From Thauera phenolivorans (lineage in GTDB: Bacteria > Pseudomonadota > Gammaproteobacteria > Burkholderiales > Rhodocyclaceae), in assembly GCF_001696715.1 (NCBI RefSeq), contig NZ_MBFM01000006.1:1-37868 (forward strand): a stretch of 37,868 nucleotides of DNA. Reading direction: 5' to 3'. The position numbers and the translations under genes are program-made. The first letter of the stretch is position 1. Every line of letters starts with the position of its first letter. Positions 14,592 to 33,821 of the stretch are shown piece by piece. The notes below the pieces were generated by a model. The model was not told where the DNA came from and made no database searches. It saw only the letters and a program-made list of their open reading frames with translations.

Positions 14592-16007
<1,416 letters not shown>

Positions 16008-16022
16008 CCGGTGGCACCTGCG

Positions 16023-16047
16023 GCAGGAGCGCAGCCCTCTGCGCGAT
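16023..16047 (+). repeat. single REP-like element (type A)
   Basis: One type A copy (GCAGGAGC variant start, perfect GCGCAG-CCCT-CTGCGC hairpin, GCGAT end) lies 15 nt after the ahcY stop, between ahcY and the TlyA-like gene. As a hairpin near the 3' end of ahcY it might stabilise the upstream mRNA segment. Confidence 0.75.
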
Positions 16048-16102
16048 AGGCGGCGGTGCCTGCGAGCTGCATCGATACCGGCAAAAGACGATCGTCACGT
16101 AT

Positions 16103-16945
16103 ATGAGCATGAACTCCTTCCACGCCCGCCAGGGCAAGCCGAAACCGGCGGCGCACGCCAAAGGCCCGGCGGACCGCCACGGCCTGCTGCGCGTCGACCA
16201 GCTGCTGGTGGCGCAGGGACTGGCGCCCTCGCGCACCGCGGCGCGTGCGCTGATCGAGGCCGGCCGCGTCACCCATGCGGGCGAGCCGGTCGCCAAACCG
16301 GCGCTCGAGCTGCCGCCCGACGCCCGCCTCGCGGTGAGGCCGGACGACAGCGACCGCTTCGTGTCGCGCGGCGCGCTCAAGCTGGAGGGCGCGCTCGCGC
16401 GCAGCCGGCTCGACGTGCGCGGCATCGGCGCGCTCGACATCGGCCAGTCCACCGGCGGCTTCAGCGACTGCCTGCTGCAGGCGGGGGCGGCGAAGGTGGT
16501 CGGGGTCGAGGTCGGCCGCGACCAGCTCCATCCGCGCCTGCGCAACGATCCGCGCTGCGTGACCCTCGAGGGTGTCAACGCCCGCGCGCTGACCGCCGCC
16601 GATCTCGGCAACCACTTTCCGCCGGGCGGCTTCGAGCTCATCGTATGCGACGCCAGCTTCATCTCGCTCAGCCTGCTGCTGCCGCAGTGGCCGGCGCTGC
16701 TCGCGCCCGGCGGCCATGTGCTGGCGCTGGTGAAGCCGCAGTTCGAAGTCGGCCCCCAGGGCATCGGCAAGGGCGGCATCGTGCGCGACCCCGCGCTCTA
16801 CGCCGAGGTCGAGGCGAAGCTGCGCGCGGCCGCGCGCGCCGCCGGGCTGCGCATCCTCGACTGGTTCGATTCGCCGATCGCCGGCGGCGACGGCAACCGC
16901 GAATTCTTCTTCCACGGCATCCGCGCGACGGACGCCGCCACCTGA
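16103..16945 (+). CDS. TlyA/hemolysin-A-family rRNA methyltransferase
   Basis: A 280-residue protein with an S4 RNA-binding domain (LLRVDQLLVAQGLAPSRTAA, about 29-48) followed by a Rossmann methyltransferase of the FtsJ type. The SAM-binding region is ALDIGQSTGGFSDCLL, and VCDASFISL is the conserved motif IV. Family members 2'-O-methylate ribosomal RNA, although the group is often annotated as hemolysin A. ATG at 16103 was taken; ATG at 16109 is equally possible, and neither has a clear ribosome site. Position between ahcY and metF fits a SAM-consuming enzyme expressed with the recycling genes. Confidence 0.9.
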   Translation: MSMNSFHARQGKPKPAAHAKGPADRHGLLRVDQLLVAQGLAPSRTAARALIEAGRVTHAGEPVAKPALELPPDARLAVRPDDSDRFVSRGALKLEGALARSRLDVRGIGALDIGQSTGGFSDCLLQAGAAKVVGVEVGRDQLHPRLRNDPRCVTLEGVNARALTAADLGNHFPPGGFELIVCDASFISLSLLLPQWPALLAPGGHVLALVKPQFEVGPQGIGKGGIVRDPALYAEVEAKLRAAARAAGLRILDWFDSPIAGGDGNREFFFHGIRATDAAT

Positions 16946-22460: not shown

Positions 22461-23375
22461 TTGAGCACCCACGCCCTGCCACCGCGACCGGCCGCCCCGA
22501 TCGTGTGGTGGACCGCGATCCGGCCGCGCACGCTCGGCATGTCGCTCGCGCCGGTGGTGCTCGGCAGCGCGCTCGCGCTCGCCGAGAGCGGCGCGCTCGA
22601 CTGGCTGGTGCTGCTGGCCACGCTCGCCTGCGCCGCGCTGATCCAGATCGGCACCAACCTCTACAACGACGCGATCGATTTCGAGCGCGGCACCGACCGC
22701 CCCGACCGCAAGGGCCCGCTGCGGGTGACCCTCGCGGGCTGGGCGAGCGCGGGCGAGGTCAAGCGCGGCGCGCTGTTGTGCCTGCTGCTCGCGCTGCTGC
22801 TCGGCGCCTACCTGTGCACCGTCGGCGGCCTGCCGATCCTCGCCATCGGCATCGCCTCGCTGCTCGCGGGCTGGGCCTATTCGGGCGGCCCCTGGCCGAT
22901 CTCGCATTCGCCCTTCGGCGAGCTCTTCGTGCTGCTGTTCTTCGGCGTGCTCGCGGTGCTCGGGAGCCACTGGCTGCAGTCGCGCACGCTCGACCATCTC
23001 GACGTGCTCGCCGGGGTGGCGGTCGGCGCGCCGGCGGCGGCGGTGCTGCTGGTGAACAACTTCCGCGACCGCGAAAGCGACCTGCGCGGCGGCCGCCGCA
23101 CGCTTGCGTCGCTGCTCGGCCCGCGGCGCGCCTGGCTGGTGTTTGCGCTGCTGGTGCTCGCGCCGCTCGCGGCCCTGGTGGCGATCGGCCTCGGCGGCCA
23201 CCCCGGCGCCGTGCTCGGGCTGGTGTGCGCGCCGACGATGCTGGCGCTCGCGCGCCGCTTCCGCACCGCGCCCGGCGCGGCGGCACTGAACGCGGTGCTG
23301 GTCGACACCGCGCGCGCCGGCACCCGTGCCGGCCTGCTGGCGGCGGCGGGCATCGTCGGCCTCGCCGTGCTCTAG
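22461..23375 (+). CDS. MenA/UbiA-type prenyltransferase (second copy)
   Basis: Membrane prenyltransferase of 304 residues from a TTG start at 22461, with GGGGTGG just upstream. The first Asp-rich motif is NLYNDAIDFERGTDRPDR and the second is VNNFRDRESDLRGGRRTL; both fit 1,4-dihydroxy-2-naphthoate prenyltransferase (MenA)-like enzymes, which add the isoprenoid tail to a quinone precursor. The upstream in-frame extension from 22305 covers the terminator and is not coding. It is followed within 10 nt by a BASS transporter gene. The substrate is not provable here, and the enzyme coexists with another family member at 3248. Confidence 0.83.
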   Translation: MSTHALPPRPAAPIVWWTAIRPRTLGMSLAPVVLGSALALAESGALDWLVLLATLACAALIQIGTNLYNDAIDFERGTDRPDRKGPLRVTLAGWASAGEVKRGALLCLLLALLLGAYLCTVGGLPILAIGIASLLAGWAYSGGPWPISHSPFGELFVLLFFGVLAVLGSHWLQSRTLDHLDVLAGVAVGAPAAAVLLVNNFRDRESDLRGGRRTLASLLGPRRAWLVFALLVLAPLAALVAIGLGGHPGAVLGLVCAPTMLALARRFRTAPGAAALNAVLVDTARAGTRAGLLAAAGIVGLAVL

Positions 23376-23384
23376 ACCGAAACG

Positions 23385-24269
23385 ATGATCACCGACGTCC
23401 TGCTCCCCGCGGCACTCGCCTTCATCATGTTCTCGGTCGGTCTGGCGCTGAAGGCGGAGGACTTCCGCGAGGTGTTCCTGCGCCCCGGGCCGCTGCTGAT
23501 CGGTCTGTGCGGCCAGCTCCTGCTCGTGCCCTGCGCGGCCCTGCTCACCGCGCTCGCCTTCGGGCTGCCCCCGGCGCTCGCGGTGGGGCTGCTGATCCTG
23601 GCCGCCTGCCCGGGCGGCGCCAGCTCGGGCTTCCTCACCCATCTCGCCGGCGGCAACGCCGCGCTCTCGCTCAGCCTGACGGTGATCAGCAGCCTCGCCG
23701 CGCTGCTCAGCTTCCCGCTGCTGGTGCAAGTGGTGCTGGCCGACTTCGGCGGCGGCGCGCTCGCCGGCGGCGCGCTGCAGCTCGCCGCGCTGCCGGTCGA
23801 GCGGCTGATCGGCAGCGTGCTGGTGGTGACCACCCTGCCGATCGTCGCCGGCATGCTGCTGCGGCACAAGGCGCCGGCCTTCACCCGCCGCCGGGAAGCG
23901 GCGATCGGCCGCATCGCCACCTGGTTCTTCGCCGCGATCGTGGCCGGCACCTTCGCCTCCCACCAGCACACCATCCTCGACAACCTGCTCGCGGTCGGTC
24001 CGGCCGCGCTCACGCTCAACCTCGCTGCGATGGGCGGCGGCTATGCGCTGGTGAGGCTGGCCCGCGCCGCGCCGCGCGACGCGGTCGCGGTGGCGATGGA
24101 GTGCGGGCTGCAGAACGCCGGGCTGGCGATCTTCGTCGCGCTCGTGCTGCTGCGCCAGCCGGCGCTCGCGGTGGCGGCGGTGGTTTATGCGCTGACGATG
24201 AACTTCGGCGCGCTCGGCCTGGTGTTCGCCGCGAAGCGGCGCGCGATGCGGGTCGAATTCGCCCGCTGA
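23385..24269 (+). CDS. bile acid:sodium symporter (BASS) family transporter
   Basis: A 294-residue membrane protein with about nine or ten hydrophobic helices. The signature AACPGGASSGFLTHLAGGN is the sodium-binding region of the BASS/SBF family, and the later ECGLQNAGLAIFVAL block is the second conserved crossover. The substrate is an unspecified organic anion. It begins 10 nt after the prenyltransferase gene and converges on the MerR-B12 regulator, with 13 nt between stops. Confidence 0.9.
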   Translation: MITDVLLPAALAFIMFSVGLALKAEDFREVFLRPGPLLIGLCGQLLLVPCAALLTALAFGLPPALAVGLLILAACPGGASSGFLTHLAGGNAALSLSLTVISSLAALLSFPLLVQVVLADFGGGALAGGALQLAALPVERLIGSVLVVTTLPIVAGMLLRHKAPAFTRRREAAIGRIATWFFAAIVAGTFASHQHTILDNLLAVGPAALTLNLAAMGGGYALVRLARAAPRDAVAVAMECGLQNAGLAIFVALVLLRQPALAVAAVVYALTMNFGALGLVFAAKRRAMRVEFAR

Positions 24270-24282
24270 GCCGGCTCGCCCT

Positions 24283-25194
24283 TCAGTCCGCAGCCGCCGC
24301 GCGCCACTCGCGCAGCGCCGCCAGCGTGTCGGCCAGATCCTCGACCACGCGCACGCCCGGCAGGCGCTTCTGCCTGCCCTTCAGCGCCGCGCCGCCGGCC
24401 CAGATCGCGATCGACGCGGGCAGCATCGCGCGCAGCTCGAGCAGGCCGTCGAGCGCCTGCCGCCACGGATAGGCGGCGCTGAAGGAGAGGCCGACGACGT
24501 CGAAGCCGCCGCCCACCGCCGCCTCGCGCAGGTCCACGATCGGCGTGCGCGCCCCGAGCGACAGGCAGTCCGCGCCCTCGGGCGCCAGCGTCGCCTCGAC
24601 CATCAGCAGGCCGAGGGTGTGCACCTCGTCGGGAAAGGTCGACAACAGCACGCGCGGCGGCGCGCCGGTACCGGCATAGGCGCCGATCGCCGCGCGCAGC
24701 ACGTTCTGCACCTGCTCGGTATATAGGTGCTCCTCGGCAACTTCGATCTCGCCGCGCATCCACGCTTCGCCGATCGCCTGGTTGAGCGGCGCGATCGTGT
24801 CGGCGACGAAGCCCTGCAAGCCCTGTCGCAGCAGCGCCTGGCGCAGTGCTGCGGCGAGCTCCGCGCTGCGATGCAGGCGGACGTACTGCAGCAAGGGGCA
24901 GGGGACGGGCGTCGCCCCGGCACCGGCCTCACCCTCCACGATCAGCGCGCGCAATTCCTCGACATCCGCGCCGACGACCTTCGCCGGCCGCCGCCCCTGG
25001 TCGAGCAGGCGGCGCACCAGGCGAAGCTTCTCCACCTGCGCCGCGGGATAGAGGCGCTCGCCGTTGGCGTCGCGCATCGGCGCGGGAAAGCCGTAGCGGC
25101 GCTCCCACACCCGCAGCGTGTCCTTCGCCACGCCGGTGTCGCGCTCCACCGCGGAAATGCCGAGGGCGCCTTCGAGTTCGGGAGCTTCGTTCAT
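24283..25194 (-). CDS. MerR-family regulator with B12-binding domain (CarH/LitR-like)
   Basis: Predicted light-sensing repressor of 303 residues. The N-terminal MerR HTH (about 11-75) includes GVAKDTLRVWERRYGFPAP. A helical cobalamin-cap domain follows, with W145 and E155-H156 in the W-x9-EH arrangement described for CarH. Then comes a Rossmann B12 domain with H192 in EVHTLG, the cobalt-ligand motif. In CarH, adenosylcobalamin drives tetramer binding to DNA and light breaks the complex. All key residues are present, so photosensing is plausible but unproven. ATG at 25194 fits homology. It is divergent from the lipid-gene run across an operator-bearing promoter, and no cobalamin riboswitch is seen. 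Confidence 0.9.
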   Translation of the reverse strand: MNEAPELEGALGISAVERDTGVAKDTLRVWERRYGFPAPMRDANGERLYPAAQVEKLRLVRRLLDQGRRPAKVVGADVEELRALIVEGEAGAGATPVPCPLLQYVRLHRSAELAAALRQALLRQGLQGFVADTIAPLNQAIGEAWMRGEIEVAEEHLYTEQVQNVLRAAIGAYAGTGAPPRVLLSTFPDEVHTLGLLMVEATLAPEGADCLSLGARTPIVDLREAAVGGGFDVVGLSFSAAYPWRQALDGLLELRAMLPASIAIWAGGAALKGRQKRLPGVRVVEDLADTLAALREWRAAAAD

Positions 25195-25198
25195 TTCT

Positions 25199-25214
25199 GT
25201 CCTGGACAAAGTTG
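25199..25214. promoter_or_regulatory. operator copy 1 of the CarH/LitR-like regulator
   Basis: GTCCTGGACAAAGTTG lies 10 nt upstream of the -35 box of the divergent promoter and 4 nt from the regulator's own start codon. It is an exact reverse complement of 25266-25281. The core GTCCTGGAC is itself palindromic around the central base. Confidence 0.75.
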
Positions 25215-25224
25215 AAATTTGGGC

Positions 25225-25253
25225 TTGACGGCCGCGTTCACGACCCCTATCTT
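25225..25253 (+). promoter_or_regulatory. divergent promoter of the lipid-modification gene run
   Basis: TTGACG (25225-25230), an exact 17-nt spacer and TATCTT (25248-25253) give a good sigma-70-like promoter reading into the 77-aa ORF. It is bracketed by the two arms of the 16-bp inverted repeat, so a regulator bound at both arms could cover it. Confidence 0.72.
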
Positions 25254-25265
25254 AGGAACACCAGA

Positions 25266-25281
25266 CAACTTTGTCCAGGAC
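25266..25281. promoter_or_regulatory. operator copy 2 of the CarH/LitR-like regulator
   Basis: CAACTTTGTCCAGGAC, the perfect inverted partner of 25199-25214, lies just downstream of the predicted transcription start and ends 7 nt before the first ATG. The arm centres are 67 bp apart, about 6.4 helical turns. Confidence 0.75.
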
Positions 25282-25288
25282 GAACGCG

Positions 25289-25522
25289 ATGAACTCGACA
25301 GATCTCCAGACCTACATGCGTCCCGCGACGACCGCCGGAATGGCCCTGTCCTTGCTTGCGTTCGGCGCCTTCGCCGGCAGCCTGGACGGGCGCGCGACGG
25401 CGATCGCTGCCACCCCCAAGCCGGCCACATCTGTCCAGGACAATCTGGACAGCAGCCGGCTGGAGGCGAAGCTCTTCCTGCACCGCCCGGGCTTCGTCGC
25501 CACCGCGGGCGCCACGCGCTGA
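25289..25522 (+). CDS. unknown 77-aa protein, first gene after the divergent promoter
   Basis: A small protein I do not recognise. One hydrophobic segment at about 16-30 (AGMALSLLAFGAFAG) is followed by a hydrophilic tail, so it may be a membrane-anchored or exported peptide. AGGA lies 9 nt before the ATG. It is the first gene after the operator-controlled promoter and ends 73 nt before the FAD oxidoreductase gene. A third copy of the operator core (25433-25441) lies within its coding sequence and encodes part of the tail. It could instead be a leader whose main role is to carry regulatory DNA. Confidence 0.6.
   Translation: MNSTDLQTYMRPATTAGMALSLLAFGAFAGSLDGRATAIAATPKPATSVQDNLDSSRLEAKLFLHRPGFVATAGATR
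25432..25443. promoter_or_regulatory. third operator-core copy inside the 77-aa ORF
   Basis: TGTCCAGGACAA repeats the palindromic core GTCCAGGAC of operator copy 2 in the same orientation, centred 159 bp downstream of that copy's core. A further GGACAG half-site follows 3 nt later. It may be an auxiliary site permitting DNA looping. Confidence 0.55.
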
Positions 25523-25595
25523 CGATGACCAAGCGCCCCTGGCCCCGTCCATTCCATTTCGCCCAGCCCCGCCCCAACCGCTCAGGACCGACCCG

Positions 25596-26987
25596 ATGAA
25601 CGCCCCCGACCCCCTCACCCTCCACGGCCTGCCGCCCGGCCGGCACCCACTCGCCGGCGTCGAGCGTCGGGACGGCGCGCGCCGGATCGCGGTGATCGGC
25701 GGCGGCATCGCCGGGCTCGGCGCGGCCTGGCTGCTGTCGCCGCAGCACCGGGTGACGCTTTTCGAGGCCGGCGACTACGTCGGCGGCCACACCAACACGA
25801 TCGACGTCACCGTCGAGGGCCGCAGCCACCCGATCGACACCGGCTTCCTGGTCTTCAATCGCCGTACCTATCCCAACCTGTGCGCGCTGTTCGAACGCCT
25901 CGGCGTGAGCTCGGTGGCGAGCGAGATGAGCTTCGGCGTCAGCCTCGCCGATCCCGCGATCGAATGGGCGGGCGCGGATCTCTCCACCGTGTTCGCCCAG
26001 CGTCGCAACCTGCTGCGCCCCGCCTTTCACGGCATGCTCGCCGACATCCTGCGCTTCAACCGCGAGACCACGCGCATGGCCGCCGGCGGCGACACCCCGG
26101 CGCTGAGCCTCGGCGAGTATCTCGCCGCCGGGCGCTACGGCGAGGCCTTCTGCCACTGGTACCTGCTGCCGATGGCGGCGGCGATCTGGTCCTGCCCGAC
26201 GCGCACCATGCTCGACTATCCGCTCGCCACCTTCGTGCGCTTCTGCCACAACCACGGCCTGCTGCAGATCCTCGACCGCCCGCAGTGGCTGACGGTGAAG
26301 GGCGGCGGCCGCGAGTACGTGCGCCGCATCGTCGCCGCGCTCGACGACGTGCGCGTCGCCACCCCGGTGCTCGGCGTGGACCGCCGCGCCGACGGCGTGT
26401 GGCTGCGCAGCCGCAATCGCCTGGAGCGCTTCGACGAAGTGGTGTTCGCCTGCCACAGCGACCAGACCCTGGCCCTGCTCGGCGCCGGCGCGAGCGCCGA
26501 CGAGCGCCGCATCCTCGGCGCGGTGCGCTACCAGCCCAACCTCGCCCTGGTGCACACCGATCCGGCGCTGCTGCCGCGCCGGCGCAAGGTGTGGTCGGCG
26601 TGGAACTACCTCGCCGGCGCCGGCCGCGCCGACGACCGCCCGGTGTCGGTGAGCTACCTGATCAACCGTCTGCAGCCGCTGCCCTTCGAGACCCCGGTGG
26701 TGGTGTCGCTGAATCCCTTCACCGAGCCCGCGGCCGACAAGCTGCTCGCCCGCATCGAGTATTCGCATCCGGTGTTCGACCAGGCGGCGATCGCGGCGCA
26801 GGCCGCGTTGCCACAGATCCAGGGCCGGCAGCGCAGCTGGTTCGCCGGCGCGTGGACCGCCTACGGCTTCCACGAGGACGGGTTGAAGTCGGCGGTCGCG
26901 GTGGCGGCGGCGCTCGGCTGCGAGATCCCGTGGGCGCCTGCGCCGGCAACTCCGACCGCCGCCCCGGCGCTGCGCGAGGCGGCGTGA
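25596..26987 (+). CDS. FAD-dependent oxidoreductase (amine-oxidase/desaturase-like)
   Basis: A 463-residue flavoprotein. The FAD dinucleotide fold is at 31-55 (RIAVIGGGIAGLGAAWLLS), followed by the GGHTNTIDV flavin contact block and a conserved FLVFNRRTYPNL stretch. The C-terminal NAD(P)-binding-protein signature WFAGAWTAYGFHEDGLKSAV is typical of the group encoded beside DUF1365 and CFA-like genes. The family is related to amine oxidases and carotenoid desaturases, so oxidation or desaturation of a lipid chain is a reasonable inference. AGGA sits 8 nt before the ATG. The stop overlaps the DUF1365 start by 1 nt (TGATG). Confidence 0.85.
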   Translation: MNAPDPLTLHGLPPGRHPLAGVERRDGARRIAVIGGGIAGLGAAWLLSPQHRVTLFEAGDYVGGHTNTIDVTVEGRSHPIDTGFLVFNRRTYPNLCALFERLGVSSVASEMSFGVSLADPAIEWAGADLSTVFAQRRNLLRPAFHGMLADILRFNRETTRMAAGGDTPALSLGEYLAAGRYGEAFCHWYLLPMAAAIWSCPTRTMLDYPLATFVRFCHNHGLLQILDRPQWLTVKGGGREYVRRIVAALDDVRVATPVLGVDRRADGVWLRSRNRLERFDEVVFACHSDQTLALLGAGASADERRILGAVRYQPNLALVHTDPALLPRRRKVWSAWNYLAGAGRADDRPVSVSYLINRLQPLPFETPVVVSLNPFTEPAADKLLARIEYSHPVFDQAAIAAQAALPQIQGRQRSWFAGAWTAYGFHEDGLKSAVAVAAALGCEIPWAPAPATPTAAPALREAA

Positions 26988-27772
26988 TGAGTACGTACGG
27001 CGCTGATCCGCGCCTCGCGCCCGCCGCCTGCTTCGGCGCGGTGATGCACGAACGCCACGTGCAGGCGGACAATCGCTTCGTCTATCCGGCGGCCTTCCTG
27101 CGCCTGCCGCTGTCGCGCCTCGACGCCCTGCGCGTGCCGCTGCTCGGCATCGACCGCCGCAACCTGTTCGCCGTCCTCAGCCGCGACCATGGCGCGCGCG
27201 ACGGATCGCCGCTGCTGCCCTGGCTGCGCGCGCTGCTCGCCGAACGCGGCCTGGCCGCCGCCTGCGACGGCGAGGTGATGCTGCAGACCATGCCGCGCGT
27301 GCTCGGCTTCGTGTTCAACCCGGTCAGCTTCTGGTTCTGCCACGACCGCGGCGGCGCGCTGCGGGTGGTCCTCGCCGAGGTCAACAACACCTTCGGCGAA
27401 CGCCACAACTACCTGGTGCACCACCCCGACCTCGCCCCCATCCTCCCCGGCGAGGCGCTGGTGGCGCGCAAGGTCTTCCACGTCTCGCCCTTCTTCCCGG
27501 TGGGCGGCGAATACCGCTTCCGCTTCGAGGGCCGCGGTGCGGTGCATGCGGTAGCGATCGACCTCTGGGACGGCGGCGTGCGCCAGCTCAGCACCCGGCT
27601 GTCGGGGCGCGCCGAGCCGCTCGACGGCCGCGCGATGGCGAAGTGGCTGCTGCGCCACCCCTTCATGACCCTGGGCGTGATCGCCCGCATTCACTGGCAG
27701 GCGCTGCGCCTTGCCGTGCGGCGCGCGCGCTTCCACCGCAAGCCCGCGCCCCCGCTCGAGGAGACCACCTGA
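26987..27772 (+). CDS. DUF1365 family protein
   Basis: A 261-residue protein of the DUF1365 family, recognised by the GAVMHERHVQADNRFVYP opening and the central LGFVFNPVSFWFCHD block, followed by VLAEVNNTFGERHNYL. Its biochemical role is not known to me. In many bacteria it accompanies an FAD oxidoreductase and a CFA-synthase-like methyltransferase, as here. Starts and stops overlap by 1 nt on both sides, so expression is tightly coupled to both partners. Confidence 0.88.
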   Translation: MSTYGADPRLAPAACFGAVMHERHVQADNRFVYPAAFLRLPLSRLDALRVPLLGIDRRNLFAVLSRDHGARDGSPLLPWLRALLAERGLAAACDGEVMLQTMPRVLGFVFNPVSFWFCHDRGGALRVVLAEVNNTFGERHNYLVHHPDLAPILPGEALVARKVFHVSPFFPVGGEYRFRFEGRGAVHAVAIDLWDGGVRQLSTRLSGRAEPLDGRAMAKWLLRHPFMTLGVIARIHWQALRLAVRRARFHRKPAPPLEETT

Positions 27773-29022
27773 TGAACGCCCTGGACCACAGCCTGCAGCC
27801 CGCGCTGCAAACTCTCGCCAGTCTCGGCCGCGCCCGCCTGCCACGCGCCACCCGGCTCGCGCTCGAGCTGCTCGACGGCCTCGAGGGCGGCGCCCTCGTC
27901 GTCGAGCTACCCGACGGCATGCAGCTGCGCGCCGGCCATGGCGCGCTGGTCGCCCATCTGCGGGTGCGCGACCACGCCGCCTTCGACCAGGCCCTCGCGC
28001 ACGGCGACATCGGCTTCGCCGAGGCCTGGATCGACGGCCACTGGGACACCGGGGACCTCACCGGCCTGCTGCGCCTGCTCTCGCGCAACCGCGCCGCCCT
28101 CGGCAGCGCGATCCACGGCCGCATGTTCCGCCTGCTCGGCCACCGCCTCGCCCACCTGCTGCGCGCCAACACCCGCAGCGGCGCGCGGCGCAACATCGAG
28201 GCCCATTACGACCTCGGCAACGATTTCTACGCGCTCTGGCTGGACCGCACGATGAGCTACTCGGCGGCGGTGTTCGCGGGCGCGGACGACAGCCTCGAGG
28301 ACGCCCAGCTGCGCAAGTACCGCCGCGTTCTCGACGCGCTCGACGCCCGCCCGGGCCAGACCATCCTCGAGATCGGCTGCGGCTGGGGCGGCTTCGCCGA
28401 GGTGGCCGCCACCGAGTACGGCTGCCAGGTGCTGGGCCTGACGCTGTCGCCCGCCCAGCTCGAGTTCGCGCAGGCACGCGCCGAGCGCGGCGGCTTCGCC
28501 CGCCAGGTGGAGTTCGCCCTGTGCGACTACCGCGACGTGCGCGGGCAGTACGACCATATCGTGTCGATCGAGATGATCGAGGCGGTCGGCGAGCGCTTCT
28601 GGCCCGGCTATTTCGCCCAGCTCGCCGCGCGCCTGAAGCCCGGCGGGCGCTGCATGGTGCAGGCGATCACGATCGCCGACGCGCTGTTCGCCCGCTACCG
28701 CCGCGGCACCGACTTCATCCAGCGCCACGTCTTCCCCGGCGGCATGCTGCCCTGCCCGGCCGAGGTCCGCCGTCAGGCCGCCGGCGCCGGCCTCGCGCTC
28801 GCCGGCGACTTCGCCTTCGGCCGCGACTACGCGCGCACCCTGGCGCACTGGCACGAGCGCTTCACCGCGCGGCTCGACGCGGTGAAGGCGCAGGGCTTCG
28901 ACGAGCGCTTCGTGCGCAAGTGGCGCTTCTACCTCTCGTATTGCGAGGCCGGCTTCGACAGTGGCGACATCGACGTCCATCACTACCTCCTCACCCACGC
29001 CGGCGGAGGCGGCGAGCGATGA
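27772..29022 (+). CDS. CFA-synthase-like SAM-dependent lipid methyltransferase
   Basis: A 416-residue enzyme of the cyclopropane-fatty-acid synthase family. The HYDLGNDFYALW block and the SAM motif EIGCGWGGFAEVA (about 199-211) are clear. In E. coli Cfa the active-site bicarbonate is held by C139, E239, H266 and Y317. My manual alignment puts Ala where the Cys should be (MSYSAAVF instead of YSC) and Gln at the His position (MVQAITI), while the Glu (SIEMIEAVG) and Tyr (FYLSYCEAGF) remain. This suggests methylation of an unsaturated acyl chain without ring closure. It overlaps DUF1365 by 1 nt and the next gene by 4 nt. Confidence 0.9.
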   Translation: MNALDHSLQPALQTLASLGRARLPRATRLALELLDGLEGGALVVELPDGMQLRAGHGALVAHLRVRDHAAFDQALAHGDIGFAEAWIDGHWDTGDLTGLLRLLSRNRAALGSAIHGRMFRLLGHRLAHLLRANTRSGARRNIEAHYDLGNDFYALWLDRTMSYSAAVFAGADDSLEDAQLRKYRRVLDALDARPGQTILEIGCGWGGFAEVAATEYGCQVLGLTLSPAQLEFAQARAERGGFARQVEFALCDYRDVRGQYDHIVSIEMIEAVGERFWPGYFAQLAARLKPGGRCMVQAITIADALFARYRRGTDFIQRHVFPGGMLPCPAEVRRQAAGAGLALAGDFAFGRDYARTLAHWHERFTARLDAVKAQGFDERFVRKWRFYLSYCEAGFDSGDIDVHHYLLTHAGGGGER

Positions 29023-29594
29023 ACGCCCGGCGCGCCGCCGCGTGGCGCCTGCCCGCCCTGCTGATGCTGGCGATCGGCCTGCTGCTGCCCGCGCTCGCCG
29101 CGGCGCGCAGCCTGCCGCCGGCGGTGGAGACGCTCGCCGGGCCGCTGCGCTTGGCGGGCGAAGGCGAGATGCGCTGGTTCGGGCTCAAGCTCTACGACGC
29201 CGCGCTCTGGGTCGAGCCGGAGGTCGAGCCGGTCGCTGCCACCCGCAGCGCCGGCCACGCGCTGGCGTTGCGCTACGCGCGCGCGATCGACGCCGGGCGC
29301 CTGGTCGACACCAGCATCGACGAGATGCGCCGCATCGGCGGCCACGACGAGGCCAGTCTCGCGCGCTGGCGCACCCAGCTGATGCAGGCCCTGCCTTCGG
29401 TGGCGGCGGGCGACACCCTCGTCGGCCTGCACCGCCCGGGGCGCGGCGCGAGCTTCTGGCACGAGGGCCGGCTCACCGCCCACGTCGACGATCCCGCGCT
29501 GGCCCGCGCCTTCTTCGCCATCTGGCTCGATGCGCGGACCCGCGCACCGGCGCTGCGTGCCCGCCTGCTCGGGCTGGACGGCGCGTCGCGATGA
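29019..29594 (+). CDS. exported chalcone-isomerase-like protein
   Basis: A 191-residue protein with an N-terminal signal peptide (hydrophobic core at about 11-28, probable cleavage after ALAAA). The mature part starts with the pattern LAGEGEMRWFGLKLYDAALW, characteristic of bacterial chalcone-isomerase-like (CHI-like) proteins. These bind or handle fatty acids or hydrophobic ligands, and true isomerase activity is not expected. It overlaps the methyltransferase gene by 4 nt (ATGA) and the transporter gene by 4 nt. Confidence 0.8.
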   Translation: MNARRAAAWRLPALLMLAIGLLLPALAAARSLPPAVETLAGPLRLAGEGEMRWFGLKLYDAALWVEPEVEPVAATRSAGHALALRYARAIDAGRLVDTSIDEMRRIGGHDEASLARWRTQLMQALPSVAAGDTLVGLHRPGRGASFWHEGRLTAHVDDPALARAFFAIWLDARTRAPALRARLLGLDGASR

Positions 29595-30913
29595 CACCGG
29601 CGTCGCTGCCCCGTCCCGCCCTCGTCGCCTACGGCGCGCTCGGCCTGCCGCTGGCCTTCGCCGCGCTGCCGCTCTATGTGCACGTGCCGCGGCTCTACGC
29701 CGGCGAGGCCGGCTTGTCGCTGGCGGCGGTGGGCGCGGTGCTGCTCGCCGCGCGCATCGTCGACGCGGTCACCGACCCGCTGCTCGGCTGGGCGAGCGAC
29801 CGCCTCGCCGGCCGCCGCCGCACCATCCTCGCCGCGACCGTGCTGCTCGGCGCCAGCCTGCCGCTGCTGCTGTCGCCGCCCGCCGGCGCCGGCGCCGCCT
29901 GGCTGTTCGGGCTGCTCGTGCTGGTCTCGATCGGCTACTCGGCGGCAACCATCGCGCACAACGCCTGGGGCGCCGAGCTGGCACCGACGCCGGATGCGCG
30001 CACCCGGGTGGTGGCCAGCCGCGAGGCCTTCGCCCTCGCCGGCGTGCTGCTCGCGGCGGCGCTGCCCGCCCTGCTCGCCGCCGGCGATGGCGAGGCCGCC
30101 GGCCTGGCGCGGCTGGGCTGGCTTTTCCTGCCCTTGCTCGTGCTGGCCGGTGCCTGGACCCTGCTCGGCGCGCCGCCCTCGCCGCCGCGCGCGGTGCAGC
30201 GCCCTGCGCCGCTCGCGAGCCTGGCCGGGGCGCTGCGCGATGCGGCCTTCGTCCGCCTGCTCGCGGTGTTCGCCGTTAATGGCATCGCGGCGGCCGTGCC
30301 CTCGGCGACCGTGCTGTTCTTCGTCGCCGACGTGCTGCGGGCCGACGCCCAGGCGGCAGGCCTCTTCCTCGTGCTGTACTTCCTCGCCGCCGCCGCCAGC
30401 CTGCCGCTGTGGGTCGCGCTGTCGCGGCGGATCGGCAAGCTGCGGGCCTGGCTCGCGGGCATGCTGCTCGCGGTCGCGGTGTTCGCCTGGGCGGCGCTGC
30501 TCGGCAGCGGCGAGCTCGCCGCCTTCGCGGCGATCTGCCTGCTCTCGGGCGTCGCGCTCGGCGCCGACCTCAGCCTGCCGCCCTCGATGCTCGCCGACCT
30601 GATCGCCGCGCCCGCGCCACCGGCGCGCGCCGGCATGCGGGCGGGCGCCTGCTTCGGCTGGTGGAGCTTCGTCACCAAGGCCAACCTTGCGCTCGCCGCC
30701 GGCACCGCGCTGCCGCTGCTCGCGGCCCTCGGCTACGCGCCGGGCGCGCGCGAACCGGCGGCGCTCGCGGCGCTGGCGGCGGTGTATGGCGTGCTGCCGG
30801 TGGTGCTGAAACTGGCCGCCGCGCTGCTGCTGTGGACCTGGCGCGCGCGGCTGGCGCCGCCGCTTCCCATTCACCCTGCGGCTGCGGCCGCCCTGCGGGA
30901 GATCCGCTCGTGA
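29591..30913 (+). CDS. MFS transporter (GPH/MFS_2-like)
   Basis: A 440-residue membrane protein with about twelve hydrophobic helices. The DAVTDPLLGWASDRLAGRRR loop between early helices is typical of the glycoside-pentoside-hexuronide/MFS_2 group, a family that also includes lipid carriers. The substrate is unknown. Its place in the lipid gene run makes a lipid or lipid precursor more plausible than a sugar, which is inference. It overlaps both neighbours by 4 nt. Confidence 0.86.
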   Translation: MTPASLPRPALVAYGALGLPLAFAALPLYVHVPRLYAGEAGLSLAAVGAVLLAARIVDAVTDPLLGWASDRLAGRRRTILAATVLLGASLPLLLSPPAGAGAAWLFGLLVLVSIGYSAATIAHNAWGAELAPTPDARTRVVASREAFALAGVLLAAALPALLAAGDGEAAGLARLGWLFLPLLVLAGAWTLLGAPPSPPRAVQRPAPLASLAGALRDAAFVRLLAVFAVNGIAAAVPSATVLFFVADVLRADAQAAGLFLVLYFLAAAASLPLWVALSRRIGKLRAWLAGMLLAVAVFAWAALLGSGELAAFAAICLLSGVALGADLSLPPSMLADLIAAPAPPARAGMRAGACFGWWSFVTKANLALAAGTALPLLAALGYAPGAREPAALAALAAVYGVLPVVLKLAAALLLWTWRARLAPPLPIHPAAAAALREIRS

Positions 30914-31440
30914 AACGACTTCTTTTACTGATTGCCGGCCTGATCGGGCTGGCGGGGTGCGCTTCGGTGGATATCGACAAATATCGCGGCCAGACGCCGG
31001 TGCTCGAGCTGCGCGACTACTTCGACGGCACGCTCGACGGCCATGGCGTGTTTCAGGACCGCTCGGGCGAGGTGGTCAGACGCTTCCATGTGCGGATCGA
31101 CGCGAGCTGGGCGGGCGAGGTCGGCACCCTCGACGAGCATTTCACCTATTCCGACGGCAGCACCCAGCGCCGGGTGTGGACGATCACCCGCCTCGGCGAG
31201 GGTCGCTACGTCGGGCGCGCCGACGACGTCGTCGGCGAGGCGCGCGGCGAGGCCGCCGGCAACGCGCTGCGCTGGCGCTACGTGCTCGCGCTGCCGGTCG
31301 ATGGCAAGGTCTACAAGGTCGATTTCGACGACTGGATGTTCCTCATGGACGATCGGGTGATGCTCAACCGCTCGTCCATGAGCAAGTGGGGCTTCCGGCT
31401 CGGCGAGCTCACCCTGAGCTTCTACAAGCGGGGCGGGTGA
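30910..31440 (+). CDS. DUF3833 family lipoprotein
   Basis: A 176-residue predicted lipoprotein: signal peptide MKRLLLLIAGLIGLAGC with the lipobox LAGC and lipidated C17. The following YRGQTPVLELRDYFDGTLDGHGVFQDRSG stretch is the DUF3833 signature. Function unknown; members are commonly found near SDR and CFA-like genes. GTG start at 30910 overlaps the transporter stop (GTGA), and the final TGA overlaps the SDR start by 1 nt. Confidence 0.88.
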   Translation: MKRLLLLIAGLIGLAGCASVDIDKYRGQTPVLELRDYFDGTLDGHGVFQDRSGEVVRRFHVRIDASWAGEVGTLDEHFTYSDGSTQRRVWTITRLGEGRYVGRADDVVGEARGEAAGNALRWRYVLALPVDGKVYKVDFDDWMFLMDDRVMLNRSSMSKWGFRLGELTLSFYKRGG

Positions 31441-32255
31441 TGGGCGCGCTCGCCGCCCTGCTGCGCCCGCCGAACGCGCCGATCCGCGGCTGGCGTGGGC
31501 GCCGGGTGTGGATCGTCGGCGCCTCGAGCGGCATCGGCGCCGCGCTCGCGCGCACGCTCGCCGCGCGCGGTGCGCGGCTGGCGCTGTCTGCGCGCGGCCG
31601 CGAGGCGCTCGAGAAGGTCGCCGCCGACTGCGGCGCGGCCATGGATGGCGAGCCGGCGCTGGTCGAGCCCCTGGACCTGACCCGGGCGGAGGACTTCGCT
31701 GCGGTGCGCGACCGCCTGCTCGCGCGCTGGGGCGGGCTCGACCTCGTGGTGCTCAACGCCGGCACCTACCGGCCGCTGCGCGCCTGGGAGCTCACGCCGG
31801 CGGCGATCCGCGACACGGTCAACACCAACCTGATCGGTCCGATGGACGCGGTCGCCGCGCTGGCGCCGACGCTGTGCGCCCAGGGCGAAGGCGCGATCGC
31901 GCTGGTCGGCAGCGTCGCCGGCTACGGCGGACTGCCGAAGGCGACGGTGTACGGTCCGTCGAAGGCGGCGCTGGCCAACTTCGCCGAGACCCTGCACCTC
32001 GATCTCGCCCCGCGCGGGGTCTCGGTGTTCCTCATCAGCCCCGGCTTCGTCGCCACCCCGCTCACCGCCGCCAACGACTTCCACATGCCCGCGCTGCAGA
32101 CCCCGGCGCAGGCGGCGGAGGCAATCGTCGCCGGCTTCGCGCGCGGCGCCTTCGAGATCCACTTCCCGCGGCGCTTCACCATGGTGCTGCGGCTGCTGCG
32201 CTGGCTGCCGCGCCGGCTGTATTTCCCGCTGGTGCGCAAGGTGACCGGGCTGTGA
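31440..32255 (+). CDS. short-chain dehydrogenase/reductase
   Basis: A 271-residue SDR. The nucleotide-binding motif is VGASSGIGAALARTLAARGA and the NAG motif is LNAGTYRP. The catalytic triad appears as Ser in LVGSVAGYGG and the Tyr-x3-Lys of YGPSKAAL. A C-terminal extension (RRFTMVLRLLRWLPRRLYFPLVRKVTG) is hydrophobic and basic, suggesting peripheral membrane association. The substrate is unknown. It is the eighth gene of the run and overlaps both neighbours. Confidence 0.9.
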   Translation: MGALAALLRPPNAPIRGWRGRRVWIVGASSGIGAALARTLAARGARLALSARGREALEKVAADCGAAMDGEPALVEPLDLTRAEDFAAVRDRLLARWGGLDLVVLNAGTYRPLRAWELTPAAIRDTVNTNLIGPMDAVAALAPTLCAQGEGAIALVGSVAGYGGLPKATVYGPSKAALANFAETLHLDLAPRGVSVFLISPGFVATPLTAANDFHMPALQTPAQAAEAIVAGFARGAFEIHFPRRFTMVLRLLRWLPRRLYFPLVRKVTGL

Positions 32256-32716
32256 GCGCGCCGGCCGGCCGCGACGATGCCGCCGCGAACATCGACTGCC
32301 GCGCCGGGGTCGACGCCCTGGTGCGCTTCTACGAGACGCTGTCGCCCGACGCGCTCGCGCACATCGGCGAGATCTACGCCGCCGACGCGCACTTTGCCGA
32401 CCCCTTCAACGCGGTGCGCGGCAGGGAGGCGATCGCGCGCATCTTCGCCCACATGTTCGCCACCGTCGATGCGCCGCGCTTCGTCGTCACCGGGCGCTTC
32501 GTCGACCGCGACCGGGCGATGCTCGCGTGGGACTTCCACCTGCGGCTGCGCGGGCGCGACACCCTGATCCGTGGCGCCACCGAGCTGCGCTTCGATGCCG
32601 ACGGCCGGGTCGTGGAGCACCGCGACCACTGGGACCCGGCGGCGGGGATCTACGAGCGCCTGCCGCTGCTCGGCGCGCCGCTGCGCTGGCTGCGAACGCG
32701 GCTGGCGGCGCGCTGA
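32252..32716 (+). CDS. NTF2-like (SnoaL-type) protein
   Basis: A 154-residue protein with the cone-shaped NTF2 fold pattern: VRFYETLSPDALAHIGEIYAADAHFADPFN at the start and GRVVEHRDHWDP near the end. Such proteins act as small-molecule isomerases, hydratases or binding proteins. GTG start at 32252 overlaps the SDR stop (GTGA). It is the last gene of the run. The 166 nt between it and the convergent phosphodiesterase gene show no clear gene or terminator. Confidence 0.85.
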   Translation: MSAPAGRDDAAANIDCRAGVDALVRFYETLSPDALAHIGEIYAADAHFADPFNAVRGREAIARIFAHMFATVDAPRFVVTGRFVDRDRAMLAWDFHLRLRGRDTLIRGATELRFDADGRVVEHRDHWDPAAGIYERLPLLGAPLRWLRTRLAAR

Positions 32717-32882: not shown

Positions 32883-33821
32883 TCAGCCGTCCGCGGCGAA
32901 CGGGAAGCGATTCGGATAGTCGGTGATGATGCCGCTGACCCCCGCCCGGCACAGCGCCTCCATCTGCACGGGATCGTTGCAGGTCCACACGAAGACCATG
33001 CCGCCGGCGGCGCGTACTTGGTCGATGCCGCGCGTGTCGAGGCGGCCGCTCACCGAGCCGAAGCCGAGCGAATCGCCCTCGCCATGGCAGCAGGGATGGT
33101 AGGCGTCGGCGTCGAGCAGGCGCAGGTAGTCCGCCGGGCGCGCCAGCCGCTCGCCGGTGAGGACGCCGGTGGCGATCTCGTCATCGAGCGCACGCAGGGC
33201 GAGCAACTGCTCGTGGTCGAAGGACGACACCAGCACGCTGCGCGCCAGCCCGGCGGCGCGCACCCGCTCGACGACGGCGGCCGCCACGCCCTCGTAGAGG
33301 CGCGGGATGGACTTGATCTCGATGTTCAGCATGAGGTCGCAGCGCCGCGCCCGCGCCAGCACCTCGGCCAGGGTGGGGATGCGGATGTCGCCGGCGGCGA
33401 GGCGCAGCCGCTCCGCCGCGGGCAGGTGGCGCGCCAGCTCGGCCTCGCCGAGCGTGCGCAGGAAGGCCTGGCGACGGGCGGCGGGCAGCGCGAGCTCGCG
33501 CGCATGCCAGCTGCCGGCATCCAGCGTGCGCAGCTCGGCGGCGTCGAAATCCGAGATGAAATCGTCGGCGCGCCCCGGGTAGCGCGCCGCGACGTCGGTG
33601 CAGCGGCCGAGGCGGTCGTCGTGATGGACGACCAGCTCGCCGTCGCGCGCGGGATGGACGTCGAGCTCGACCATCGCGCAGCCGAGCGCGGCCGCCTTCT
33701 CGAAGGCGGGGAGCGTGTTCTCGGGGGCGAAGGCGCGCGCGCCGCGGTGGCCGACGACGATCGTGCGTCCCGCCGCCAGCGGGTGGCCGGAAGGCGACAG
33801 CAGGGTGCGGGGAGAAAGCAT
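32883..33821 (-). CDS. glycerophosphodiester phosphodiesterase
   Basis: Hydrolyses glycerophosphodiesters from phospholipid turnover to glycerol-3-phosphate and an alcohol. The 312-residue protein has the GDPD catalytic set: H25 and R26 in GHRGARAFAPENT, E52 and D54 in VELDVHPARDG, and H67 in VVHHDD. No signal peptide is evident, so it is probably cytosolic (UgpQ-like). It converges with the lipid gene run and is on the same strand as the phasin gene, separated from it by a strong terminator. Confidence 0.93.
   Translation of the reverse strand: MLSPRTLLSPSGHPLAAGRTIVVGHRGARAFAPENTLPAFEKAAALGCAMVELDVHPARDGELVVHHDDRLGRCTDVAARYPGRADDFISDFDAAELRTLDAGSWHARELALPAARRQAFLRTLGEAELARHLPAAERLRLAAGDIRIPTLAEVLARARRCDLMLNIEIKSIPRLYEGVAAAVVERVRAAGLARSVLVSSFDHEQLLALRALDDEIATGVLTGERLARPADYLRLLDADAYHPCCHGEGDSLGFGSVSGRLDTRGIDQVRAAGGMVFVWTCNDPVQMEALCRAGVSGIITDYPNRFPFAADG

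Follow-up and report, generated by a model that had tools for sequence, protein, structure and literature searches.

The 37,868-nucleotide stretch of Thauera phenolivorans analyzed here (contig NZ_MBFM01000006.1; hereafter the window, at its full length) carries the gene of a MerR-family regulator with B12-binding domains, divergent from an operon (ufa) whose products resemble the furan fatty acid enzymes of Rhodobacter sphaeroides. We regard it as fairly probable that this regulator is an adenosylcobalamin (AdoCbl)-type LitR/CarH repressor, and that light releases from it an operon for methyl-furan fatty acid synthesis. Gene content and order, the operator, its regulon in relatives, the spacing of the sites and the changed active site of a methyltransferase related to cyclopropane fatty acid (CFA) synthase are read directly from the sequences. 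AdoCbl binding, light response, repression and lipid product are what we infer.

Coordinates, open reading frames (ORFs) and Pfam families above cut-off confirmed the arrangement given in a preliminary description of the window, in which the regulator gene faces nine plus-strand genes. Between neighbors among the last eight of these (25596-32716), each of the seven junctions is an overlap of 1 or 4 nt, and residues W145, E155-H156 and H192 of the regulator, named in the same description, are all present in the translated sequence. The genes of the locus, with lengths in amino acids (aa), are as follows.

24283-25194, minus strand: MerR regulator with MerR_1, B12-binding_2 and B12-binding domains, class I LitR/CarH-like, ATG at 25194, 303 aa (Pfam)
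25289-25522, plus strand: 77-aa small ORF without a Pfam match, its product exported-looking by eye
25596-26987, plus strand: UfaD-like FAD desaturase, amine oxidase/NAD_binding_8, 463 aa (Pfam, locus comparison, PMC7380195)
26987-27772, plus strand: UfaO-like DUF1365 protein, 261 aa (Pfam, locus comparison, predicted model, PMC7380195)
27772-29022, plus strand: UfaM-like CFA-family S-adenosylmethionine methyltransferase with CMAS match, 416 aa (Pfam, residue comparison, tree)
29019-29594, plus strand: chalcone isomerase-like exported protein, Chalcone_3 (Pfam)
29591-30913, plus strand: MFS_2 transporter, counterpart of the major facilitator superfamily (MFS) gene in Rhodobacteraceae operons (Pfam, locus comparison)
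30910-31440, plus strand: DUF3833 protein, N-terminus lipoprotein-like by eye (Pfam)
31440-32255, plus strand: short-chain dehydrogenase (SDR) (Pfam)
32252-32716, plus strand: NTF2/SnoaL_2-like protein (Pfam)

The UfaD-, UfaO- and UfaM-like genes are consecutive, with all three furan families together in one operon (Pfam and locus comparison). In R. sphaeroides, UfaM methylates cis-vaccenate, UfaD (RSP1091, an FAD protein) desaturates the methylated product and UfaO (RSP1090, DUF1365) inserts O2 to form the furan ring; O2 is required for 11Me-10t,12t-18:2 and for the furan, and RSP1089-1087 are dispensable for the synthesis (PMC7380195). The preliminary description named UfaM and UfaD only and had left the DUF1365 protein unrecognised as UfaO (PMC7380195). 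RSP1091-1087 form an operon of ufaD, ufaO and three more genes, with ufaM elsewhere as RSP2144 (PMC7380195), whereas ufaM and a Chalcone_3 gene lie inside the window operon. The named Rhodobacteraceae-type loci come from the best 80 of 585 stretches found with UfaO, among whose titles neither R. sphaeroides nor R. palustris appears; in these 80 the FAD gene was matched in 79, SDR in 75, MFS in 68 and DUF3833 in 62. The order UfaD-UfaO-MFS-DUF3833-SDR, a core like that of the window, was seen in six of the nine Rhodobacteraceae loci inspected in full. Rhodobacter ruber L261 has the same operon core, also divergent from its likely regulator, a sigma factor with a ChrR-cupin protein, and the window FAD and DUF1365 proteins share 46 and 44% identity with their L261 counterparts. 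The R. sphaeroides RSP1091-1087 operon lies beside rpoE-chrR. Compared with Rhodobacter, the MerR-B12 gene of the window occupies the place of the sigma/ChrR divergent neighbor.

A survey of 250 genomes of the order, with E values of about 1e-45 or better for the regulator (which excluded 6 of 82 genomes) and of 1e-20 or lower for UfaO, found the regulator in 76, a UfaO homolog in 113 and both in 68, against 34 expected; in 56 the two lie within 12 kb. The regulator and UfaO are thus paired more often than by chance. Among 29 genomes of the genus, UfaO was present in 20, all of them within the 22 that have the regulator.

A 15-bp inverted repeat, TTTGTCC(A/T)GGACAAA, was identified as the likely operator. 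The 94 bp that separate the divergent genes contain two copies with one mismatch each. With up to three mismatches allowed, the window gives seven matches where 0.06 would be expected, and six of these fall at O1-O3. The predicted sites and promoters are as follows.

25196-25210, no strand: operator O1 (predicted), one mismatch, 1 nt from the regulator ATG and upstream of the ufa -35 (pattern match)
25225-25253, plus strand: ufa operon promoter, sigma70-like, TTGACG-N17-TATCTT (sequence match)
25249-25277, minus strand: regulator promoter, sigma70-like, TGGACA-N17-TAAGAT, with the -35 inside O2 (sequence match)
25270-25284, no strand: operator O2 (predicted), one mismatch, 74 bp or about seven helical turns from O1 (pattern match)
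25430-25444, no strand: operator O3 (predicted), two mismatches, 160 bp from O2 and within the small ORF (pattern match)

A third site also lies at 160 bp in loci L031, L032 and L034, and at 175 bp in L033. In these four loci, an ORF of similar size to the 77-aa ORF directly precedes a glutathione peroxidase gene (gpx), which together with folE2 occupies the interval from the small ORF to ufaD. In L043, a Na+/Pi cotransporter gene (14837-16618) separates merR from ufaD. The merR-ufaD gap is of similar size in other genus members, which implies separate operators for merR and ufa there.

Across the genus, sites within one mismatch of TTTGTCCASGACAAA occur in 24 of the 29 genomes: every one of the 22 that carry a strong regulator ortholog, and two of the seven without the regulator, G012 (68% complete) and G023. 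The reversed pattern, used as a control, matched four times in total in the 29 genomes (G003, G015, G023 and G025). The sites that were fetched adjoin merR, the ufa/folE2/gpx operon, phrB, cryptochrome-like, FolM-type SDR, DUF3429 and ABC1 genes, a set which resembles the PplR targets phrB, ufaM, folE and cryB reported in the available text of PMC9758184. In the window's own genome, the other one-mismatch site (C9:420038; L083 6958-9592) lies between divergent FAD oxidoreductase and ABC1 (UbiB-like) kinase genes, and this second operator locus has added DUF3429 and cryptochrome-like genes in relatives.

Promoter spacing was studied in 80 sites of the window and genus loci with up to two mismatches and a TGGACA core. 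The TGGACA-TAnnnT spacing is exactly 17 nt in 36 of them, while each other spacing from 12 to 25 nt occurs in none or one; the regulator promoter of the window agrees with this pattern. Conservation is limited to the 15 bp. Ahead of ufa, paired sites were found in all of the 18 genus genomes covered (G019, G021 and G025 are outside this set), 63 bp apart in 12, 61 bp in one and 74-75 bp in five including the window, the second site having three mismatches in six genomes. A TTGACA/G hexamer was seen by eye between or beside the pair in 12 of the 18. The 588,159 bp of loci, which partly overlap, hold just 35 sites with two or three mismatches, many of them pair partners. The difference between the two main spacings is close to a full helical turn, which suggests binding on one DNA face. 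Two published operator types were also looked for and set aside: tandem 11-bp TnnACA direct repeats of the CarH operator type occur at 0 of the 80 sites at -11 and at eight at +11, and the Pseudomonas class II operator T(G/A)TACA-N12-TGTA(C/T)A has no match in the window at up to two mismatches. Among 50 scanned loci, matches to the latter were confined to L193 (two) and L197 (one).

The regulator contains both B12 domains and the MerR helix-turn-helix, the domain composition of class I LitR/CarH proteins (Pfam). Its alignment comprised 54 homologs: the window, 21 genus loci, L198-L200 and the 29 best loci from outside the genus; L193, which gave no match, was left out, and L022 was retained although truncated upstream. 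The query in these searches was a 302-aa form from 25191, one codon past the ATG, in which residue numbers are one lower. Equivalents of W131, E141-H142 and H177 of Thermus thermophilus CarH (TtCarH), the AdoCbl-site residues, are conserved in all 54 sequences, and AdoCbl-forming CobO/BtuR is encoded in the window's genome. Full-length matches beyond the genus do not exceed 55% identity.

In TtCarH, the light-state bond is formed by H132 as upper ligand. No histidine was found at this position in the 54 homologs, which show Met (28, including Met146 of the window), Val (9), Leu (7), Ala (3), Ser (3), Ile (2), Thr (1) and Phe (1). Because this ligand switch is missing, the regulator might sense AdoCbl, that is B12 status, or oxygen/redox, with no direct role of light, an explanation we judge unlikely though not negligible. 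It would agree with the TtCarH H132A variant, described as mostly tetrameric after light in the available text of PMC10442372, which also cites an earlier contrary report of disassembly, and with the consumption of O2 by the steps to 11Me-10t,12t-18:2 and to the furan (PMC7380195). However, the same operator adjoins photolyase and cryptochrome-like genes in relatives, and CtMerR (Arg) and the photocobilins (Gln/Tyr) are light-responsive with other residues at the H132 position, as given in the available part of PMC11796333. Improbable to a greater degree is that the MerR protein acts as the DNA-binding part alone while a separate LOV or other photoreceptor senses light. Pseudomonas offers the model, where PmlR2 of P. 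mendocina is freed by PmSB-LOV (available text of PMC9758184), but the Pseudomonas class II proteins are without a full B12 site, whereas the window regulator retains its ligand residues and its two B12 domains.

The product of the operon could also differ from the one proposed. The CFA-like protein is related to CFA synthase and has a CMAS match, and a cyclopropane or simple methyl-branched fatty acid, with the FAD and DUF1365 proteins acting elsewhere, is improbable, marginally less so than a separate photoreceptor. The compared residues of E. coli Cfa are C139, E239, H240, H266, I268 and Y317, several of which bind bicarbonate. The other CFA protein of the genome retains all six, but the window protein has A, A and Q in place of C139, H240 and H266. 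In 57 ufa-operon sequences (some from one genome twice; RSP2144 is outside the set), the C139 position is S in 33, A in 23 and G in one, the H240 position is A in 56 and R in one, and the H266 position is Q in all, while E239, I268 and Y317 are unchanged throughout. That all 57 have these three residues replaced points to methyltransferases different from cyclopropane synthase. The 57 sequences form one clade that excludes the genome's paralog (support 0.98). Plain cyclopropane synthase identity is thus unlikely, being contradicted by the active-site residues. Furthermore, among loci chosen by DUF1365 (some genomes twice), the FAD gene is nearby in 50 of 50 and the CFA-like gene in 45 of 50, which speaks against separate roles for the FAD and DUF1365 proteins.

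Returning to the AdoCbl-type repressor and its furan-lipid operon, the mechanism may be outlined as follows. In the dark, the AdoCbl-bound regulator would occupy the inverted repeats O1 and O2, which flank the face-to-face promoters, and O3 inside the first gene would assist repression. From the site match, the bound repressor would cover the -35 of its own promoter, and it would probably bridge or wrap the ufa promoter, as O1 and O2 lie on one DNA face. Light would break the Co-C bond, the repressor would depart and the operon would be expressed. UfaM would then methylate cis-unsaturated acyl chains on phospholipid, UfaD would desaturate the methylated product and UfaO would add O2, yielding a methyl-furan fatty acid, which may help against singlet oxygen or related oxidants. 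More tentatively, and with rather less confidence than for the repressor itself, these proteins may form a His132-less branch of AdoCbl photoreceptors that govern furan-lipid synthesis as part of a light-stress regulon, their helically phased pairs of inverted repeats (six or seven turns) flanking the promoter and holding a light-released DNA bridge.

The light-regulated furan-lipid locus proposed in the preliminary description held up in its gene content, with three contiguous Ufa families and a regulator conserved alongside, and in the likely operator, which also stands at photolyase and cryptochrome-like genes of relatives; several features speak against a plain CarH system. Here the missing His132 and the H132A behavior given above are joined by the NCBIfam CarH equivalog score (129 bits, cut-off 400), by the published light signature GxxH (available part of PMC11796333), which reads DEVH in the window regulator, and by an operator made of inverted repeats, not the CarH direct repeats. 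Other observations also weigh against the proposed light switch. The rest of the window's genome has only the one further one-mismatch site at C9:420038, and its single photolyase has no operator site nearby; at up to three mismatches the whole genome gives 27 matches, a background level next to 22 for the reversed control, so the weaker matches mean little. Neither gpx nor folE2 is found at 25289-25596 of the window, the search being of this locus only. A perfect operator in G005 (L114 3491) lies between chemotaxis-receptor and alpha/beta hydrolase genes, a misfit for a light regulon, and one-mismatch sites of G005, G007, G008:C187, G016:C18, G017:C23 and G021:C190 were left unfetched. The site and spacing counts are non-independent because the genomes are related. 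Among 32 loci beyond the genus, the best upstream site carries up to two mismatches in 17, three in six and four or five in nine, where shuffled controls average about 5.7. Orthology to the Ufa proteins of R. sphaeroides and R. palustris is suggested by family, gene order and named relatives.

The structures of two operon proteins were also studied. LkcE is the closest solved structure to the window FAD protein by sequence search. The predicted model of UfaO is beta-rich, with a predicted local distance difference test (pLDDT) of 86.6 from 25 sequences, and its best PDB match is nitrobindin 3wjb (E 3e-3, TM 0.34/0.50) among weak calycin-like barrels; a profile search of PDB sequences with UfaO gave three RNase P protein matches alone (E about 0.02). 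As these PDB matches are weak, the calycin/nitrobindin likeness is a mere lead, and in the predicted model such a fold might hint at the cofactor of UfaO. Around the locus, UbiA-type prenyltransferase and bile-acid-type symporter genes lie downstream of merR (22503-24269), and an oppositely oriented glycerophosphodiester phosphodiesterase gene (32883-33821) faces the operon end.

Among the open papers listed by our literature searches, none reported the MerR-B12/ufa pairing or the 15-bp palindrome, and none gave measurements of light, B12 or lipid effects for regulators of this family. If the proposed regulation is correct, a single switch would connect membrane antioxidant lipids with light and vitamin B12, and the role of B12 photoreceptors would extend past carotenoids, with an operator and regulon ready for testing. 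A His132-less CarH family would be useful for learning how the light signal exits cobalamin, and the replaced residues may serve as a sequence mark separating UfaM-like proteins from true cyclopropane synthase.

Among known light systems, the CarH proteins of Thermus thermophilus and Bacillus megaterium share with the window regulator the MerR and two B12 domains, the W/EH/H ligands and the overlap with a -35; in contrast, the window regulator has no H132, an inverted-repeat operator, and lipid and repair genes replacing the carotenoid genes. Published CarH operators are tandem 11-bp direct repeats, plastic operators being also described (PMC9304148, in the part available), and the paired inverted repeats would, as part of the tentative bridge, contrast with the contiguous tandem repeats of AdoCbl-type CarH. 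The blue-light response of Vibrio cholerae is alike in having a LitR-like MerR, VCA0056, with phr and a light-induced CFA-like gene, VC1122, but its CFA gene is in a separate locus (available text of PMC5241685), and class IV LitR of Vibrio is said to be without a B12 domain, unlike the window regulator (PMC9758184, in the part available). According to the available text of PMC9758184, the pplR1/pmlR1 cluster of Pseudomonas putida and P. mendocina likewise has a LitR-family gene with ufaM, FAD, SDR and phrB, and light induction was measured there, ufaM and phrB of P. mendocina being induced 25-33 fold; furthermore, promoter P6650 of P. mendocina has two regulator sites, a precedent for pairing in the B12-free PmlR2 system. 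The same source describes, unlike the window, a class II LitR without a full B12 site, a LOV partner and the T(G/A)TACA-N12-TGTA(C/T)A operator. Since LitR light control of the ufaM cluster is already published in Pseudomonas, what is new here is the AdoCbl-type regulator, the operator with its geometry, and the active-site mark.

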